From contig NZ_NFHH01000021.1 in assembly GCF_002161285.1 (NCBI RefSeq), positions 1 to 64,000 on the forward strand: a stretch of 64,000 bases of DNA. Reading direction: 5' to 3'. The translations under genes were made by a program, and so were the position numbers. The notes below the pieces were generated by a model. The model searched no databases. It was not told the DNA's origin and was given only the letters and a program-made list of their open reading frames with translations. Of this stretch, positions 9,953 through 18,001 are shown piece by piece. The DNA is from Blautia sp. An81. Its GTDB lineage: Bacteria; Bacillota; Clostridia; Lachnospirales; Lachnospiraceae. Within the stretch, counting starts at the first letter, position 1. Each line of letters opens with the position of its first letter.

Positions 9953-10759
9953 TCATAGGCGCTTTTGGTAAATCCACTGGAGAAGATTGATCAATGCATA
10001 GAGCAGTATTGCCATGACGCAGAGTATCACAATGGACATGATCATGGTGGTAAGCTGGAAGACCTGGCTGGAATAGATGATCAGATATCCCAGGCCTCGC
10101 TTGCTGCCGATCATTTCCCCGATCACGATACCAATGAGAGAAAGGCCGATATTTACTTTCATAACGCTTAAGATCAAAGGGACCGACCCGGGAAGGATCA
10201 CTTTCAGCAGTTCATCTTTCTTGTTTCCTCCCAATGTTCGGATAAGCTTTAGTTTATCCGGGTCTGTCTCGCAGAATCCCGTATAAAGATTCATAATGGC
10301 TCCGAAGACAGCCACAGAGATTCCTGCCAGGATAATGGTTTTCATATTGCTGCCCAGCCACACAATGAGAAGAGGGGCCAGAGCAGATTTTGGAAGACTG
10401 TTCAGCACTACCAGATAAGGCTCCAGAATGAGAGACAGCCGGGGAAAGGCCCAGAGGAGCACACCGCAGCCGATTCCCAGTATGGTTACCAGTGCAAAGC
10501 TTATGAGAGTTTCCAGAAGGGTAATGGAAACGTGGTCGATCAAGGTGTGGTCCAGAAGCATTTCCCACATCTTTTCCAGGATCTGCCCCGGGCTTGAAAA
10601 GATAAAAGAGTCAATGAGCCCGGTTCTTGCAGATATCTCCCACAGTCCTACTAAAAATACAAATAGAAGAACTCTGGAGACCTGTATAAGAATGGAATTC
10701 CGTCTGATGGACAGAAGATATTTTTTCTGCCGCAGGGAAACCGGCTCAGAGTTCTTCAT
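9953..10759 (-). CDS. ABC transporter permease, NitT/TauT (SsuC) family
   Basis: A 268-residue membrane permease of the nitrate/sulfonate/taurine type. There are six likely helices, starting at VLLFVFLVGLWEISA, and the family EAA loop (GGNKKDELLKVILPGSVP) near residues 175-192, where the ATPase docks. The ATG lies inside the end of the ATPase gene (14-base overlap), so the two were translated as a pair. The ATPase is now interrupted by the integrative element, so this permease is probably not powered and may not be transcribed from its native promoter. No substrate-binding protein is adjacent, so the substrate is unknown. Confidence 0.8.
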   Translation of the reverse strand: MKNSEPVSLRQKKYLLSIRRNSILIQVSRVLLFVFLVGLWEISARTGLIDSFIFSSPGQILEKMWEMLLDHTLIDHVSITLLETLISFALVTILGIGCGVLLWAFPRLSLILEPYLVVLNSLPKSALAPLLIVWLGSNMKTIILAGISVAVFGAIMNLYTGFCETDPDKLKLIRTLGGNKKDELLKVILPGSVPLILSVMKVNIGLSLIGIVIGEMIGSKRGLGYLIIYSSQVFQLTTMIMSIVILCVMAILLYALINLLQWIYQKRL

Positions 10760-11384
10760 GGCGGTTCAGCTCCTTCCAGATTTCATTAAAATAATTTTTA
10801 AATTCCGGAGCGCTTCGGGAGGCCATGGGAGTCCGGTCTTCCAGATCAAACTCTATAGAGATGATTTTCTGTACGGTGGCTGGCCGCCTGCTGAAAACAA
10901 TGACCCGGTCTGCCATGCTCACGGCTTCTGAAATATCATGGGTTACCAGTATAGCGGTTTTTTCTTCCTTCCTGATGATCTTTCCAATATCGTCGCCTAC
11001 AGAAAGCCTGGTCTGATAATCCAGGGCGGAGAAGGGCTCGTCAAGGAGGAGAAGCTCCGGGTCAAGGGCCAGGGTGCGGATCAGAGCCGCTCTTTGGCGC
11101 ATGCCTCCGGAAAGCTGGGATGGCCGTGAATCCTTAAACTTATCCAGCCCGTAATCGGTAAGGAGATGTTCTGCTCTTTCAATATTTTCTTCGGATTTTT
11201 TCTTCTGTATCTCAAGACCCAGCAGAACATTGCTGTATATGGTGCGCCATTCAAAAAGATGGTCCTTTTGAAGCATATAGCCGATATTGGTGGCGGTCTC
11301 TTCCATAGGCTTTCCCTTTAAGAGGATTTCTCCTTTTTCAGGCTTCAGAAGTCCGCAGAGCATATCCAGAAGGGTAGATTTACC
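10746..11384 (-). pseudogene. C-terminal part of ABC ATPase, separated from its start by the element
   Basis: From GKSTLLDMLCGLLKPEKGE onward this is residues 48-258 of a NitT/TauT ATPase: Q-loop GYMLQKDHLFEW, signature SQLSGGMRQR, Walker B LLLLDEPFSALD, H-loop ILVTHD. Upstream of the GK the frame runs into element DNA (about 35 unrelated residues, FCFPWSSVGK) and the glycine that opens Walker A is missing. The lost N-terminus is found intact at 17859-18001. The reading frame is clean, so the split is recent or reversible. Confidence 0.9.
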
Positions 11385-11410
11385 TACAGAAGACCAGGGG
11401 AAACAAAAAG
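11380..11410. other. Left attachment junction with attP arm
   Basis: The core TTACC (11380-11384) is followed after ten bases by the arm CAGGGGAAACAAAAAG (11395-11410). Its reverse complement matches the right arm at 17830-17845 in 15 of 16 positions. Host ATPase sequence lies to the left of the core. Confidence 0.8.
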
Positions 11411-11457: not shown

Positions 11458-11643
11458 ATGAGAGACCGGGAAATCCCAATGGAGATCATAGAGCAGGGAG
11501 AACTGCGCCGAAAAGAAATCCTGGACTTCTGGGCTGTACAGATTGGAGAAAAGTTGAGGGAAGAAGTGCCGTCAAAAGAAGAGAGAATAGAAATCCTGGA
11601 CCGGATTTTGAAAAATCTCAGCTACCCTTCTGAATGCCCTTGA
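11458..11643 (+). CDS. Small charged protein at the left end of the element
   Basis: A 61-residue, highly charged, probably helical protein (MRDREIPMEIIEQGELRRKE...) with no membrane segment or recognised motif. GGGAG lies seven bases before the ATG, and the gene begins about 50 bases inside the left junction. Its size, charge and position next to an att site fit a recombination directionality factor, but those proteins share little sequence, so this is only a candidate. Confidence 0.45.
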   Translation: MRDREIPMEIIEQGELRRKEILDFWAVQIGEKLREEVPSKEERIEILDRILKNLSYPSECP

Positions 11644-11783
11644 TTTTGCAGAAAAAGAGGTTGGATTTGCGGAATAGAGATTGTTTTTCGACTATTATGC
11701 GGTACAATATAATTAGAAACTACATACGGATAATATCATTTCCTTACAGAGAAAGGCGGCAGGCCGCCAAAGGAGGCGTTCCT

Positions 11784-12494
11784 ATGAAGAAAAATCGGTG
11801 GCAGCAGTTAAAATACGATAATGAAAACAAACAGTGGAAACTGGAGCCGGAGAACCAGGAAACACTGGAGGAAATTATTCGTTTTCTTTATCACGAAAAG
11901 GTAGGGGTGATGGAAAGTGAGCTGATCCGCAGGGATTTGATCAGTATGGCCCAGGAAGCAGAAAAAAACGGAGAAAAATTAAAAACCCGGCTGGGTGATA
12001 TGGAAGCCTTTGCCCGGGAACTTGTTTCAGAGAGAAAGAAATCCTGCAAAGAAGAAAGGCTTTATTATAGCCTTTGGAAAACAGGAAAATATCTTTATAT
12101 TCTTTGGATTTCTCTTGCTGGAATAATATTTGTAAATGCCCTGTCAATGATACGGGCCGGCTTAGATCCCGGTATTGCGGAAGGAGTAAATTTTCTTTTT
12201 ATTCCCTATTGCATTTTATTAGCTTTTTTAATCTATTCTTATGACATATATGTCCAAAACCTGTTTCCTCTTAAAGGAACAGGAGGGAAAGTTCTGAGGG
12301 GGATTCTGGTTGTGGGATTCTTATTCCTCCTGAATGTGCTGCCCCGTTTTACTGCTGATCTCTGGAGCTCAGAGACTCTGGAGATACTAAGGGTGCCAAA
12401 CCTGATCTACCTGCCGCTGATCCTGGCAGCCTGGCTGGTTTCCAGGTGGGGGTATCTGCGGTTCAGCCAGTATGTGGAGAGAATAAACCTATAA
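11784..12494 (+). CDS. Membrane protein of unknown function, DUF1129/DUF1048-like layout
   Basis: A 236-residue protein: a soluble helical N-terminal half (residues 1-95, KYDNENKQWKLEPENQETLE...) and four likely membrane helices, at about 103-125, 142-160, 172-192 and 205-222. A cytosolic helical domain followed by a four-helix block is common in Firmicute DUF1129/DUF1048 proteins; I cannot confirm the family. AAAGGAGG lies before ATG 11784, which is preferred over the upstream in-frame start at 11634 that lacks a site. It is cargo of the integrative element. Confidence 0.55.
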   Translation: MKKNRWQQLKYDNENKQWKLEPENQETLEEIIRFLYHEKVGVMESELIRRDLISMAQEAEKNGEKLKTRLGDMEAFARELVSERKKSCKEERLYYSLWKTGKYLYILWISLAGIIFVNALSMIRAGLDPGIAEGVNFLFIPYCILLAFLIYSYDIYVQNLFPLKGTGGKVLRGILVVGFLFLLNVLPRFTADLWSSETLEILRVPNLIYLPLILAAWLVSRWGYLRFSQYVERINL

Positions 12495-12654: not shown

Positions 12655-13236
12655 TTACAGAAAAAGGGATACTGCACAATATACCAGCAGTAAAGCCATG
12701 ACCAAATTTACGGCCTTTGTATGCCGGGCAAAGAATCTGCAGAAAGCAGAACCGAACAGGGCCCATACATAGGAACTGGAAGCACCGATGAGGGTCAGGA
12801 CCAGGACAAAGCCGAAAAGGATCAGAGGAGAGGAATATAAGGGCAGGATATAAAGGGACATGGCGGTAATGGCGTAGATGTAGATTTTGGGATTCATAAA
12901 CTGCAGGAGCATTCCGGCAGTGAAGCTGGCTTCTTTGCCCCCTTCTGCCTTCAGGTCTCCGGAGCTTTTCCATACCTTCCATGCCAGATAGAGCATATAC
13001 CCGGCCCCCAGTATCTGCATGAGGAACTTTACTTTGGGAAGAAGGGTATATAAAGTGGCGCTGAACAGGGTACAGATACTCATAACAAAGAAAAATCCAG
13101 CAGTGATTCCAAAGTTAAAGGAGACACTGCGGCGAAAGCCCAGCCGGGCTGCATTGCTCATAGAGAGCAGATTATTGGGGCCTGGGGTATAGGCGGTAAT
13201 AAAGCAGTAGATTAAAAAATCATACAATGGGAACAA
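12655..13236 (-). CDS. LysE/RhtB-family amino acid exporter
   Basis: A 193-residue inner-membrane exporter with six likely helices. The family signature TPGPNNLLSM is near residue 18 and is followed by AARLGFRRS. The group exports amino acids or homoserine/threonine/cysteine-like compounds by proton antiport. The start is taken as TTG 13236, eight bases after AAGGAG; the GTG at 13245 overlaps that site. It is divergent from the XRE-cupin regulator, a common arrangement for a regulated exporter, and it shares an element with a cysteine-degrading enzyme, so cysteine or a related amino acid is a plausible substrate (inference). Confidence 0.8.
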   Translation of the reverse strand: MFPLYDFLIYCFITAYTPGPNNLLSMSNAARLGFRRSVSFNFGITAGFFFVMSICTLFSATLYTLLPKVKFLMQILGAGYMLYLAWKVWKSSGDLKAEGGKEASFTAGMLLQFMNPKIYIYAITAMSLYILPLYSSPLILFGFVLVLTLIGASSSYVWALFGSAFCRFFARHTKAVNLVMALLLVYCAVSLFL

Positions 13237-13245
13237 AGAAACCAC

Positions 13246-13383: not shown

Positions 13384-13935
13384 TTGGACTCAATGAATAA
13401 GATTGTTGCAAGAAACGTGAAAGACCTCCGGGAAAAGAACAATCTGAGCATGGATGAGCTGGTCAGGCTCAGCGGAGTCAGCAAGAGTATGCTGGCCCAG
13501 ATCGAGAGGGGGGACGCCAATCCTACGATTTCTACTTTATGGAAAATTTCCAATGGATTGAAGGTGCCTTTCGACGCCCTTACCCTGCGGCCAAAATCCG
13601 ATTATGAAATTGTAAAAACAGAGGAGGTCCAGCCTCTTTTGGAAGATGAGGGAAAAGTCAGAAATTATTCTCTCTTTCCTGATGATGAGAACCGGAGATT
13701 TGCAGTCTATTATCTGGAACTGGATCCGGGCAGCTTCTGGGAATCAGAACCTCATCTGAAAGGAACTGCGGAATTTATTACAGTTTTTGCCGGGAGCCTG
13801 GAGGTACGGACCGGGGACCGGGTGTTTACTGTAGCGAAAGGAGAAAGTATCCGGTTTCCGGGAGACAGGATCCATTCTTACAGAAATACAGGGCAGGAGA
13901 TGACGGTCCTGCATATGATCTTATACAATCCATGA
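13384..13935 (+). CDS. XRE-family regulator with C-terminal cupin
   Basis: A 183-residue transcription factor. An N-terminal helix-turn-helix (residues 7-62, LSMDELVRLSGVSKSMLAQI) is joined to a cupin barrel (about residues 105-180, ending ESIRFPGDRIHSYRNTG). In this class the cupin binds a small effector and the HTH controls a neighbouring transporter or catabolic operon. TTG 13384 has GGGAAGTG at the right distance, while the in-frame ATG at 13393 is 15 bases from it; either is possible. It heads a tight operon: kinase, cysteine-desulfidase-type enzyme, recombinase. Confidence 0.85.
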   Translation: MDSMNKIVARNVKDLREKNNLSMDELVRLSGVSKSMLAQIERGDANPTISTLWKISNGLKVPFDALTLRPKSDYEIVKTEEVQPLLEDEGKVRNYSLFPDDENRRFAVYYLELDPGSFWESEPHLKGTAEFITVFAGSLEVRTGDRVFTVAKGESIRFPGDRIHSYRNTGQEMTVLHMILYNP

Positions 13936-13952
13936 GAAATGAGAGAAAAGCT

Positions 13953-14900
13953 ATGAAAAATATTATGATCATAGGAGCGGCTGTGGGAGATGTGCTGGTT
14001 TATCCGGCGTCTCCTGAGGTTTTTGCCGCAGGTTCCTGGCCGGCCAGGGAAATCCTCTTGTCTACAGGGGGAGACGGACTGAATGAAGCCACGGTTCTGG
14101 CAGATCTGGGAAAAAGTCCCTACCTGTGTACTTTACTTGGAAAGGACAAGATGGGAGAAATGGTGAGGGCTCACTGTGAAGCAAGAGGAATCCGCAAGGA
14201 TTTCCTTCAGTATGACCAGGATATTCCTACGGGATTAAATGTAGTATTAGTCCAGGAGAACGGAGAGAGAAGCTTTCTGACCAATCCGGCCAGCTCTCTG
14301 CGAAAGTTGAAAAGGGAACACATTCCCAGGAAGTTTCCCGAGGACGTGGGTATCCTCTGCCTGGCCAGTATTTTTGTCTCTCCCTGTCTGGAAAACCAGG
14401 AACTTTCAGAGATTTTTGCCAGAGCAAAAGAGCAGGGGCTCACAGTCTGCGCGGACATGACCAAGAGGAAAAAAGGAGAGACAGCCTGGGATATGAAGGA
14501 GACTTTCTCCCAGGTGGATTACCTTTTTGCCAACCAGGAGGAGGGCCAGCTGCTGACTGGAAAATCTGCACCGGAAGAGATTGCCCATGCACTATTAGAA
14601 TGTGGGGCAGGCTGTGCAGTGATCAAGACGGGAGGGAAAGGCTGCTATATAAAAAACAAAAAAGAAGCTTTTGCCATTCCCGGATTTTCTGTAGAATGTG
14701 TGGATACCACCGGAGCAGGAGACAGCTTCTGCGCCGGGTTCCTTTACGGACTGTCTGAGAAGAAAGATCTGTATACCTGCGGACTGTACGGAAATGCCTG
14801 CGGTGCTCTGGCCGTCCGGCAGGTGGGAGCCTGCAGGGAAAAGATTTTATGGAAAGATGTGGATAAAATAATCAAAGAACAGGGGAAGAAAAATGGATAA
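13953..14900 (+). CDS. PfkB-family carbohydrate/nucleoside kinase
   Basis: A 315-residue ribokinase-fold kinase. The N-terminal GG motif is STGGDGLNEATVLADLG, and the C-terminal signature DTTGAGDSFCAGF (near residue 255) holds the catalytic Asp. The substrate is not evident; sugars, nucleosides and some amino-acid-like alcohols are all known for the fold. ATG 13953 is chosen because the frame MKNIMIIGAAVGDVL matches the family start; an ATGA overlap at 13932 is the alternative. Its end overlaps the next gene by eight bases, so the two products are probably made together. Confidence 0.8.
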   Translation: MKNIMIIGAAVGDVLVYPASPEVFAAGSWPAREILLSTGGDGLNEATVLADLGKSPYLCTLLGKDKMGEMVRAHCEARGIRKDFLQYDQDIPTGLNVVLVQENGERSFLTNPASSLRKLKREHIPRKFPEDVGILCLASIFVSPCLENQELSEIFARAKEQGLTVCADMTKRKKGETAWDMKETFSQVDYLFANQEEGQLLTGKSAPEEIAHALLECGAGCAVIKTGGKGCYIKNKKEAFAIPGFSVECVDTTGAGDSFCAGFLYGLSEKKDLYTCGLYGNACGALAVRQVGACREKILWKDVDKIIKEQGKKNG

Positions 14901-16206
14901 GAAACTCTATGAGGCGTATATAAAGATTCTGGAGGAAGAGCTGGTACCTGCCATGGGCTGTACAGAACCTATTGCCATTGCCTATGGAGCAGCTCTGGCC
15001 AGAGAGACTCTGGGGAGCCTGCCTAAGAAAGTGATCATCAGCGCCAGCGGAAATATCATTAAAAACGTAAAAAGCGTAGTAGTGCCAAATACCGGCGGCC
15101 TTCGGGGAATTCCTGCCGCAGCAGCAGCGGGAGTTGTGGCCGGAAAGGCAGAGAAAAAGCTGGAAGTACTGGCAGATATTACTTCAAAGGAAGTAGAAGA
15201 GATCAGCGCCTATCTGAAGGCGGCAGCTTTTGAGGTGAAAACTGTGGAATCCGGCTGTGTTTTTGACATTATCGTAGAGCTTCAGGGAGAGGGACATCAG
15301 TGCTCTGTGCGGATCCAGGGACATCATACAAATGTAGTCTATGTGGAGAAAGACGGAGAAGTCCTGCTGGATAAGGATTATGCAGAAGGACAGGAAGGAG
15401 AGCGGACAGACAGAAGCCTGCTCAGTGTGGAAGAGATCATCCGGTTTGCAGACCAGGTGGAGATTTCCCATGTAGAAAAGGTGATCCAGAGGCAGATTGA
15501 TTATAACACGGCCATTGCCCAGGAAGGTCTCAGTGGAAAATGGGGCGCCGGAATCGGAAAGATCTTACTGCTGTCTTACGGAAACAGTGTCCATAACCGG
15601 GCCAAGGCCATGGCTGCTGCAGGCTCTGATGCCAGAATGAACGGCTGCGATATGCCGGTAGTGATCAATTCCGGCAGCGGAAACCAGGGAATGACCGCCT
15701 CTCTTCCGGTTATTGTTTACGGAGAAGATATGAAGGTATCCAGAGAAACACTGATAAGGGCCCTTGTGGTTTCCAATCTGGTGACCATACACTTAAAATC
15801 CGGCATCGGTACGCTGTCCGCTTACTGCGGCGCTATCAGTGCAGGCTGCGGAGCCGGAGCGGGGATTACTTATCTCTATGGAGGCAGATTTAAGGAAATC
15901 GCTCATACTATTGTAAATGCTCTGGCCATTAATTCCGGAGTTGTCTGCGACGGAGCCAAAGCAAGCTGTGCGGCAAAGATCGCCTCTGCAGTGGAGGCCG
16001 GTACTCTGGGAATGAAAATGTATCAGTTCGGCAGTGAATTTTATGGGGGAGACGGCATTGTGGCCTCTGGAATCGAGGAGACCATCGAAAACGTATCCCA
16101 GCTTGCCAGAGACGGCATGAGAGAAACCGATAAAAAGATCATCGACATTATGATCCGCAATCAGGGAAAGGAGAAACAGAAGGAAGATCCTCTGCATATA
16201 CTATAA
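14893..16206 (+). CDS. L-cysteine desulfidase / serine dehydratase-alpha-like Fe-S enzyme (CyuA/YhaM family)
   Basis: A 437-residue cytoplasmic lyase of the UPF0597/CyuA family, whose members split cysteine to pyruvate, ammonia and sulfide, or act on serine, with a 4Fe-4S cluster. The early Cys sits in VPAMGCTEPIA (Cys23), and further cluster candidates are in CGAISAGCGAGAG and VVCDGAKASC near 310-360. The C-terminal Gly/Ala-rich loops fit the serine dehydratase alpha fold. The overlap with the kinase gene and the presence of a LysE exporter point to amino acid detoxification or use. Cysteine versus serine cannot be settled here. Confidence 0.75.
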   Translation: MDKKLYEAYIKILEEELVPAMGCTEPIAIAYGAALARETLGSLPKKVIISASGNIIKNVKSVVVPNTGGLRGIPAAAAAGVVAGKAEKKLEVLADITSKEVEEISAYLKAAAFEVKTVESGCVFDIIVELQGEGHQCSVRIQGHHTNVVYVEKDGEVLLDKDYAEGQEGERTDRSLLSVEEIIRFADQVEISHVEKVIQRQIDYNTAIAQEGLSGKWGAGIGKILLLSYGNSVHNRAKAMAAAGSDARMNGCDMPVVINSGSGNQGMTASLPVIVYGEDMKVSRETLIRALVVSNLVTIHLKSGIGTLSAYCGAISAGCGAGAGITYLYGGRFKEIAHTIVNALAINSGVVCDGAKASCAAKIASAVEAGTLGMKMYQFGSEFYGGDGIVASGIEETIENVSQLARDGMRETDKKIIDIMIRNQGKEKQKEDPLHIL

Positions 16207-16233: not shown

Positions 16234-17856
16234 GTGCGGATCGCTGTTTATGTGAGAAAGTCAAAATGGACAGGCAGAGGAGAGAGCATTGAAAATCAGA
16301 TCTTCCTGTGCCGGGAATACATAGAAAAATATATAGAAAATTCCCGGGAAGCCCAGATCCTGGTCTACAGGGACGAAGGGTTTTCCGGGAAGGACACCAA
16401 CAGGCCTCAGTTTCAGAAAATGTTAGCAGACATGAAACTAAGGCCTTTTCAGTATCTGGTCTGCTACCGGCTGGACCGTCTGGGAAGGAATCTGGCAGAT
16501 CTGGCTCTGCTCATTGAAAAGCTGAACCGGGAGCATACAGAATTTGTCAGTATCAGGGAACGTTTTGATACCTCCACCCCTATGGGAAAGGCCATGGTGT
16601 ATTTTTCCGGGGTTCTTGCCCAGATGGAGCGTGAGCAGATCGGAGAGCGGGTCCGGGACAATATGTATCTTCTTGCTAAGAGCGGGAGATGGCTGGGAGG
16701 AAATACACCTCTGGGCTTTCAGGTCCGGGAAAAGCTTTACGGAGAGGGGAAGCTTAAAAAGGCCTTTTATCTGGAAGTAAAGGAAAAAGAGGCAGAGATT
16801 CCCCGGCTCATCTTCCGGGAGTTTTTAGATTCCCATTCTCTGACTAAAACGGCAGAACTGCTGGTAGAAAGGCAGATTTTTACAAGAAGAGACAGAATTT
16901 ATACTCCTGAAGCCATAGGGGAAATCCTGGAAAATCCTGTATACTGTCAAAGCGGAGAGAAGGCTTATGAATATTTTGCTTCTCTGGGCTGCCAGATGGG
17001 GTTTTCCAGAGAGGAGATCAGAGAGGAAAAGGGGCTCATAAGCTATGGAAGAACGGTATCTTCCAGGTACCGGGGCCAGGAGGCGTCTCCACAGGAATGG
17101 ATCATCGCCCAGGGAGAACATGAAGGAATGATCTCACAGGAAGACTTTTTAAGAGTACAGAAGCTTCTGAAAAGACATCGCCTGGGAAAACCAGGGGAGG
17201 GCCGGGTCCAGAATGAAGCCTGTCTGCTGTCGGGATTTTTATTCTGTTCCTGCGGCTGCAGGATGCGTCCTAAATATTACAGAAGGGAGCAGATTACCAC
17301 AGAAGGACAGCGGAAATTTTCCTATCGGTGCCCCTGCCGGGATAAAACCAGAGGACGGGATTGTCAGGAGATCCCCCTTTTGGGGAATCTTGGAGACTGC
17401 CTGGTGTGGAAATTTCTCATGAAAAAGACAGGCGAAGAGTTTTCTCTGGAAGAAATCTTCCTGGAAATCAGAAGGCGAACGGAGAAGGAAAAATCCCGGG
17501 AAGGAGAATGGGAAAAGATACGGAAGGAAGCTCAGGGACTGGAGAGAGAAGCCCGGCGACTGACCCAGAGACTGGCAGAAACAGAAGATGGGGACCTGGC
17601 AGAATTTCTAAAAAAAGAGATTCAAAGCCGGCTGGCCCAGAGAGAATATTTGAGAGAAAAGGCGAATGGGGAAAAGAATTCTTTCAACAAGAAAGAGAGA
17701 GAAAACATTGCTCGCCGGTATTCGGACCCGAAATTTTTATCCTCATGTTTGTCTGTTCCAAATAAGCGGGCTTATCTGGGACTTTGGGCGGAGAAGCTCA
17801 TCTGGGAGGGAGGAGTGCTGAAACTTTACCTTTTTGTTTCTCCTGAACTGCCGTAG
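16234..17856 (+). CDS. Large serine recombinase (integrase of the element)
   Basis: A 540-residue site-specific recombinase. The resolvase catalytic domain is residues 1-150, with the nucleophile in YVRKS (Ser10) and the arginines of YRLDRLGR. The recombinase domain starts near 155 (RWLGGNTPLGF). A zinc ribbon near 330-380 has CSCGC and YRCPC...DC. A charged coiled coil follows (about 405-490). The start is GTG 16234 with AAGGGA upstream. It begins 27 bases after the desulfidase gene, so it is the last gene of the cargo operon. Its final codons form the right attP arm. Confidence 0.93.
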   Translation: MRIAVYVRKSKWTGRGESIENQIFLCREYIEKYIENSREAQILVYRDEGFSGKDTNRPQFQKMLADMKLRPFQYLVCYRLDRLGRNLADLALLIEKLNREHTEFVSIRERFDTSTPMGKAMVYFSGVLAQMEREQIGERVRDNMYLLAKSGRWLGGNTPLGFQVREKLYGEGKLKKAFYLEVKEKEAEIPRLIFREFLDSHSLTKTAELLVERQIFTRRDRIYTPEAIGEILENPVYCQSGEKAYEYFASLGCQMGFSREEIREEKGLISYGRTVSSRYRGQEASPQEWIIAQGEHEGMISQEDFLRVQKLLKRHRLGKPGEGRVQNEACLLSGFLFCSCGCRMRPKYYRREQITTEGQRKFSYRCPCRDKTRGRDCQEIPLLGNLGDCLVWKFLMKKTGEEFSLEEIFLEIRRRTEKEKSREGEWEKIRKEAQGLEREARRLTQRLAETEDGDLAEFLKKEIQSRLAQREYLREKANGEKNSFNKKERENIARRYSDPKFLSSCLSVPNKRAYLGLWAEKLIWEGGVLKLYLFVSPELP

Positions 17857-17863
17857 CATTACC
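17830..17863. other. Right attachment junction with attP arm
   Basis: The arm CTTTTTGTTTCTCCTG (17830-17845), 13 bases, then the core TTACC (17859-17863). With the left junction it rebuilds an attP of two near-perfect inverted arms around the core. The centre of symmetry falls on the TT of TTACC, a plausible crossover dinucleotide (AA on the gene strand). Confidence 0.8.
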
Positions 17864-18001
17864 GCAGCCTGAGGGACCTACCACGGCTACGAATTCTCCG
17901 GGATAAACCTGAAAAGATATATGAGAAAGGGCGGGAGTTTCCCCGGATTTTGTGTGATAAGCATAACTGATATCTTTAATTTCTAAAAGAGGTGCAGCCA
18001 T
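17859..18001 (-). pseudogene. N-terminal part of the interrupted ABC ATPase
   Basis: ATG at 18001 with AAGGAAG upstream opens MAAPLLEIKDISYAYHTK... and runs to FVAVVGPSGCG, the first 47 residues of a NitT/TauT ATPase including the first half of Walker A. The frame then enters element DNA (NATAVQEKQ...) and stops at 17798. With the fragment at 10746-11384 it makes a 258-residue ATPase of normal length. Confidence 0.9.

Follow-up and report, generated by a model that had tools for sequence, protein, structure and literature searches.

The two ends of a 6,479-bp element (measured core to core) of Blautia sp. An81 very probably make up, one half-site each, the attP used by the large serine integrase that the element encodes, judging from the symmetry of the joined ends, their conservation and the junctions of related elements. 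The element lies in the window, the whole stretch of 64,000 nucleotides that was analyzed (contig NZ_NFHH01000021.1), and splits an ABC-transporter ATPase gene at its Walker A motif (Table 1). In the proposed mechanism, the excised circle would join the two ends into attP, and a dimer of the integrase would bind it through an outer zinc-domain motif (half-site positions 16–24, GTTTC) and an inner recombinase-domain region. Once this dimer had paired with another on attB, the strands would be cut at TT, rotated and rejoined. The putative attB is the stretch of one ABC ATPase gene that encodes the P-loop, in which the TT/AA overlap would form the first two bases of the invariant lysine codon. 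On excision, presumably assisted by a small directionality factor (the strongest candidate being a 61-aa ORF), the ABC gene would be regained exactly.

Table 1. Features of the element and of the interrupted gene in the window.
Feature	Position	Strand	Remarks
ABC permease, partner of the interrupted ATPase	9953..10759	-	
C-terminal part of interrupted ABC ATPase gene	10746..11381	-	From Walker A lysine
Core TTACC, left junction (attL)	11380..11384	.	Most likely crossover TT = 11380-11381
Inner arm CTAC	11384..11387	+	Half-site positions 4-7
Outer P' arm, left element end (CAGGGGAAACAAAAAG)	11395..11410	+	GAAAC at 11400-11404 = positions 20-24
61-aa ORF, just inside left end	11458..11643	+	Candidate recombination directionality factor
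286-aa ORF, cargo	11634..12494	+	No match in Pfam or NCBIfam
LysE-type exporter, cargo	12655..13245	-	Best NCBIfam match cysteine/O-acetylserine transporter, under its cut-off
HTH-cupin regulator, cargo	13384..13935	+	
PfkB-family kinase, cargo	13932..14900	+	
Serine dehydratase alpha-like (PF03313), cargo	14893..16206	+	
Large serine integrase, 540 aa	16234..17856	+	Stop 17854-17856; PF00239 resolvase and PF07508 recombinase domains; cysteine zinc-ribbon motif visible
Outer P arm, right element end (CTTTTTGTTTCTCCTG)	17830..17845	+	Within integrase 3' end; half-site positions 30-15
GTTTC in right arm	17836-17840		Half-site positions 24-20; kept in most distant relatives
Inner arm GTAG	17853..17856	+	Half-site positions 7-4
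Core TTACC, right junction (attR)	17859..17863	.	Most likely crossover TT = 17859-17860
N-terminal part of interrupted ABC ATPase gene	17859..18001	-	47 codons up to the Walker A glycine, followed by AA

Symmetry of the Joined Ends

The initial annotation had read an attP from two arms, and both the left arm CAGGGGAAACAAAAAG and the right arm CTTTTTGTTTCTCCTG are present where it placed them. Fifteen of the 16 positions of the left arm agree with the reverse-complemented right arm, and 28 bases separate the arms in the joined (circular) form, as the annotation had counted. The joined ends read CTTTTTGTTTCTCCTG-AACTGCCGTAGCA-TTACC-TACAGAAGAC-CAGGGGAAACAAAAAG, that is, CTTTTTGTTTCTCCTG-N13-TTACC-N10-CAGGGGAAACAAAAAG. 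Symmetry scoring also located the two-fold axis on TT, where the annotation had set it: 21 of the 28 pairs scored around TT are complementary in the window attP, a value not equalled when the same 66 bases were shuffled 20,000 times, and a slightly shorter join gave 20 pairs at TT versus 12 at the best alternative centre. The result is an imperfect inverted repeat of about 50 bp around a central dinucleotide, the structure of a large-serine-integrase attP; the type proposed holds, with the same spacing in relatives and the Walker A inserters as a single integrase clade. Two features had been missed by the annotation, namely the inner repeat GTAG/CTAC at half-site positions 4–7 and the part of the arms that is conserved across the family, GTTTC/GAAAC.

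Of the 20 genomes in the genus search, seven carry the integrase, including that of the window; the other six integrases are 74–89% identical to it. The comparison genomes were assemblies only, many of them MAGs. The right end lies at the identical Walker A site in all seven integrase-bearing genomes, and both ends are present in five elements of 4.2–6.5 kb (window, G201, G217, G028, and G205). When attP was rebuilt from these complete elements, the best symmetry fell on TT in 5/5, with 17–20 of 28 pairs versus 12–13 at the next centre.

Integrase

The domain assignment of the integrase was clear for the resolvase (PF00239, E 7e-36) and recombinase (PF07508, E 5e-19) domains, and the protein matched PHROG 95 integrase (E 6e-91); a zinc-ribbon model was not reported by the Pfam search. 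The right arm is indeed part of the 3' end of the integrase coding sequence, as had been claimed. This overlap is a trait of the genus clade of the window, and the integrase of G176 stops before the arm. In the attR of G208 (L024, 2285–2311), the integrase stop reads GAG, not TAG, and the frame crosses the core into host sequence, giving an open frame of 611 aa.

A fossil element with an attP out of use would agree with the assembly of the same genome, in which a search for a circular junction or an empty site found neither. Such a fossil is very improbable, since the integrase gene is intact with a dN/dS of about 0.10–0.17 within the genus clade, the arms are conserved on both sides, and one related genome, G216, has an empty site.

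Probable Crossover Dinucleotide

The five-base core TTACC of the initial annotation stands as the block common to both ends in this genome, whereas the exchange most likely involves TT alone, with ACC as conserved flank. Both attL and attR carry TT in 10/10 two-ended sites, and the base 5' of TT is mismatched in 10/10. From TT on, the block shared by attL and attR is TTACC in the window clade, TTGCC in G210, TTGCCG in G176, TTA in G220 and just TT in G104 and G222. Because the two TT-only cases agree with the symmetry axis, TT is the best, and most likely, estimate of the crossover dinucleotide. Alternatively, changes at the glycine wobble position after insertion may account for the mismatches on which this narrowing of the core is based.

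The dinucleotide TT is non-palindromic and the same in attP and attB. On the gene strand, the left-junction TT reads AA and supplies bases one and two of AAA, the Lys codon of Walker A. Since TT is not its own complement, a single orientation of the element is predicted, and this matches the junctions: in every one seen, the integrase side adjoins the N-terminal ABC part, so that all elements share one orientation.

Interrupted ABC ATPase Gene and Putative attB

The ABC ATPase is split at Walker A, with the N-terminal part ending in GPSGCG and the C-terminal part starting with KSTLLDML. When the two flanks were joined, a single open ABC ATPase frame was obtained, so that precise excision would repair the coding sequence, as with a gene-intervening element. 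The ATPase reached no cut-off of the curated NCBIfam models. Restoration of the P-loop within the C-terminal fragment was ruled out, as this fragment starts with SSVGKST and lacks the first glycine of GxxxxGK. A palindromic attB was also ruled out (5–12 of 30 pairs). The attB is not symmetric, and a zinc-domain motif shifted 5 bp toward its centre, looked for by eye, was not convincing, with partial resemblance only. Like the degenerate arms of G222, these features of attB count against the attP reading.

The interrupted gene remains under strong purifying selection: the dN/dS of its C-terminal half was 0.005–0.03 among inserted genomes versus 0.02–0.06 in close intact pairs, and no frame breaks were seen. 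Because of this selection, a reversible interruption like those of gin, skin or SPbeta is plausible.

Conservation of Site and Target in Distant Relatives

The same spot, the lysine codon of Walker A in one ABC-transporter gene, is occupied by a total of 14 related elements. Distant integrases, 42–49% identical to that of the window, lie at the same codon of the homologous ABC gene in G021, G104, G176, G280, G384, G220 and G222. The attP pattern GTTTC-N18-T|T-N18-GAAAC was also found in G210, G176, G104 and G220, all with two-ended sites, and the right-end arm alone in G384, G280 and G021. GTTTC/GAAAC occupies positions 20–24, inside the zinc-domain region (16–24), in nine of the 10 two-ended sites; the arms of G222 are largely degenerate (10/28 pairs, p 0.09). 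In G210, a member of the genus, the ABC gene is split at the same codon by ends resembling those of G176, located on different contigs (L079, 1–300; L092, 4700–4918).

These comparisons bear on whether the arm symmetry might be due to chance or to a low-complexity artefact of A/T-rich runs at the ends, as the runs of A and T in the arms could suggest. Such an origin is hardly credible: it is contradicted by the symmetry scoring, by the shuffles, none of which reached the window score, and by the attL/attR crossover comparison, and both centre and spacing are shared by elements with integrases as distant as those listed above.

Moreover, the Walker A inserters form one side of a branch of the integrase tree (SH-aLRT 99, in a quick tree with some long branches). 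Among the inspected integrases of the neighbouring branches, whose identity to the G176 query is about 42% at most, no Walker A junction was found.

Empty Sites, Divergence and Transfer

The ABC gene is intact in G216, at the same locus, and in 11 other members of the genus; these are the empty sites. In the flank tree, the empty G216 falls inside the inserted clade, grouping with the inserted G201 and G217 at 100/100, and no match to the integrase, the HTH-cupin regulator or the serine-dehydratase-like gene was found in it at the thresholds used. A single ancestral insertion followed by precise loss in G216 is suggested as the simplest reading of this placement; alternatively, G216 may never have carried the element.

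Two accounts of the biology of the element are compatible with the attP reading. One is a host-serving, reversible gene-interruption switch, in which excision in some cells or conditions would restore the transporter. The split ABC gene, with its unbroken frames and a dN/dS no higher than in close intact pairs, is consistent with this, and so are the empty G216 inside the inserted clade and the integrase dS values, which are near those of the flanks in G217, G028 and G205. Against it, the target is not among the known sporulation genes and the integrase and flank trees are partly discordant. Additionally, the element genes of G000 and G214 differ by a dS of 0.32–0.43 versus 0.78–0.96 for the right flanks; the element is less diverged than these flanks, and therefore transfer occurs. 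A switch serving the host is possible but rather unlikely.

The other account, which is probable, though with modest confidence, is that of an ordinary integrative element, selfish or carrying cargo, with repeated entry into and exit from attB. It would explain the constraint on the ABC gene by recent insertion or frequent loss in each lineage. The cargo differs by lineage and the element size varies between 2.4 kb (G222) and about 8.6 kb (G220), which agrees with this account, as do the other, G176-like ends of G210 at the same site and the transfer between G000 and G214. It is also favored by the left part of the element, in which the LysE gene and the 61-aa ORF show a dS of about 0.9 or saturated versus about 0.3–0.4 for the flanks (L022 and L025 versus L023 and L032); these modules conflict with the flanks, which indicates module exchange between elements. 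By contrast, no phage structural or conjugation genes for movement between cells were present among the ORFs of the window element, and the dS values of integrase and flank lie close together in several pairs, which suggests long residence.

A broader and more doubtful proposal than the attP reading itself is that an integrase clade in the bacterial family to which Blautia belongs has become adapted to the lysine codon in the P-loop of a single ABC transporter ATPase and acts as a reversible on/off switch of the transporter outside sporulation, with exchangeable metabolic cargo.

Comparison With Known Systems

The putative attP resembles those of characterized large serine integrases. The zinc domain of the A118/LI integrase contacts half-site positions 16–24 (Rutherford 2013, PMC3783163), and the A118/LI attP, like that of the window, is an imperfect inverted repeat about a central dinucleotide; GTTTC (20–24) falls within that zinc-domain region. 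It differs in that here the motif is GTTTC at 24–20, the overlap is TT, the target is the P-loop of an ABC ATPase and the arm overlaps the integrase coding sequence. In the 48-bp attP of Bxb1, which has an asymmetric central dinucleotide, the outer flanks at positions 19–23 are critical for binding (PMC3642061); these positions are comparable to those of GTTTC here, while sequence, overlap and target differ.

Elements that interrupt genes have also been described. In Bacillus cereus, gin is a non-phage, gene-intervening element in gerE, with a serine recombinase and precise restoration of the gene (Abe 2017, PMC5595907); its att is an inverted repeat, with a predicted AA exchange inside a 9-bp core (PMC5595907). 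It has a sporulation gene as target, three recombinases and the factor GirX, whereas the window element has an ABC transporter gene, metabolic cargo and one integrase. SPbeta in spsM (PMC4191935) and the skin of Clostridioides difficile in sigK (PMC5025042) are excised by a serine recombinase, which requires a directionality factor, and the split gene is restored; unlike the window element, they are prophages or prophage-like and controlled by sporulation. Diverse large serine recombinases (LSRs) are known to share one conserved site in one gene, such as a prolyl isomerase or a magnesium chelatase gene (Durrant 2022, PMC10083194), and the main text of that work mentions neither ABC transporter nor ATP-binding. 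No paper describing a serine recombinase whose attB is a Walker A sequence was found in a literature search conducted mostly outside subscription journals. What appears to be new is the integrase family, with the codon it targets and the sites defined here, while gene-intervening serine-recombinase elements and LSRs sharing one target gene were already known.

For what appears to be an uncharacterized family of gut-bacterial large serine integrases, the data specify an attP/attB pair in full, ready for testing, and natural variants locate the crossover. Pairs of this kind are useful genetic tools for gut anaerobes that are hard to engineer. A possible case outside sporulation is also added to the gene-interrupting elements, and the use of the interrupted gene becomes directly testable.

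Small ORF and Cargo

The 61-aa ORF is the best candidate for the directionality factor. Its start lies 77–88 nt from TT in 5/5 complete genus elements, and its length is 54–61 aa in the genus relatives. It had no match in Pfam, NCBIfam or PHROG, and it aligned weakly (13–26%) with the short ORFs of G176, G104 and G222. A minimal element of about 2.4 kb (L172, 1506–3965) contains, besides the integrase, just a short ORF and an HTH protein, and its attP arms are degenerate.

Homologs of the PfkB and/or serine dehydratase alpha-like genes were also observed in element-free members of the genus, beside the intact ABC gene and on the side of a dehydrogenase gene (L071, 6106–8386; L068, 11283–12395; L074, 7693–8946). 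The element may have captured genes native to the ABC locus. The closest copies of the serine dehydratase alpha-like gene outside the element are the ABC-adjacent ones of G204 and G200 (76%).
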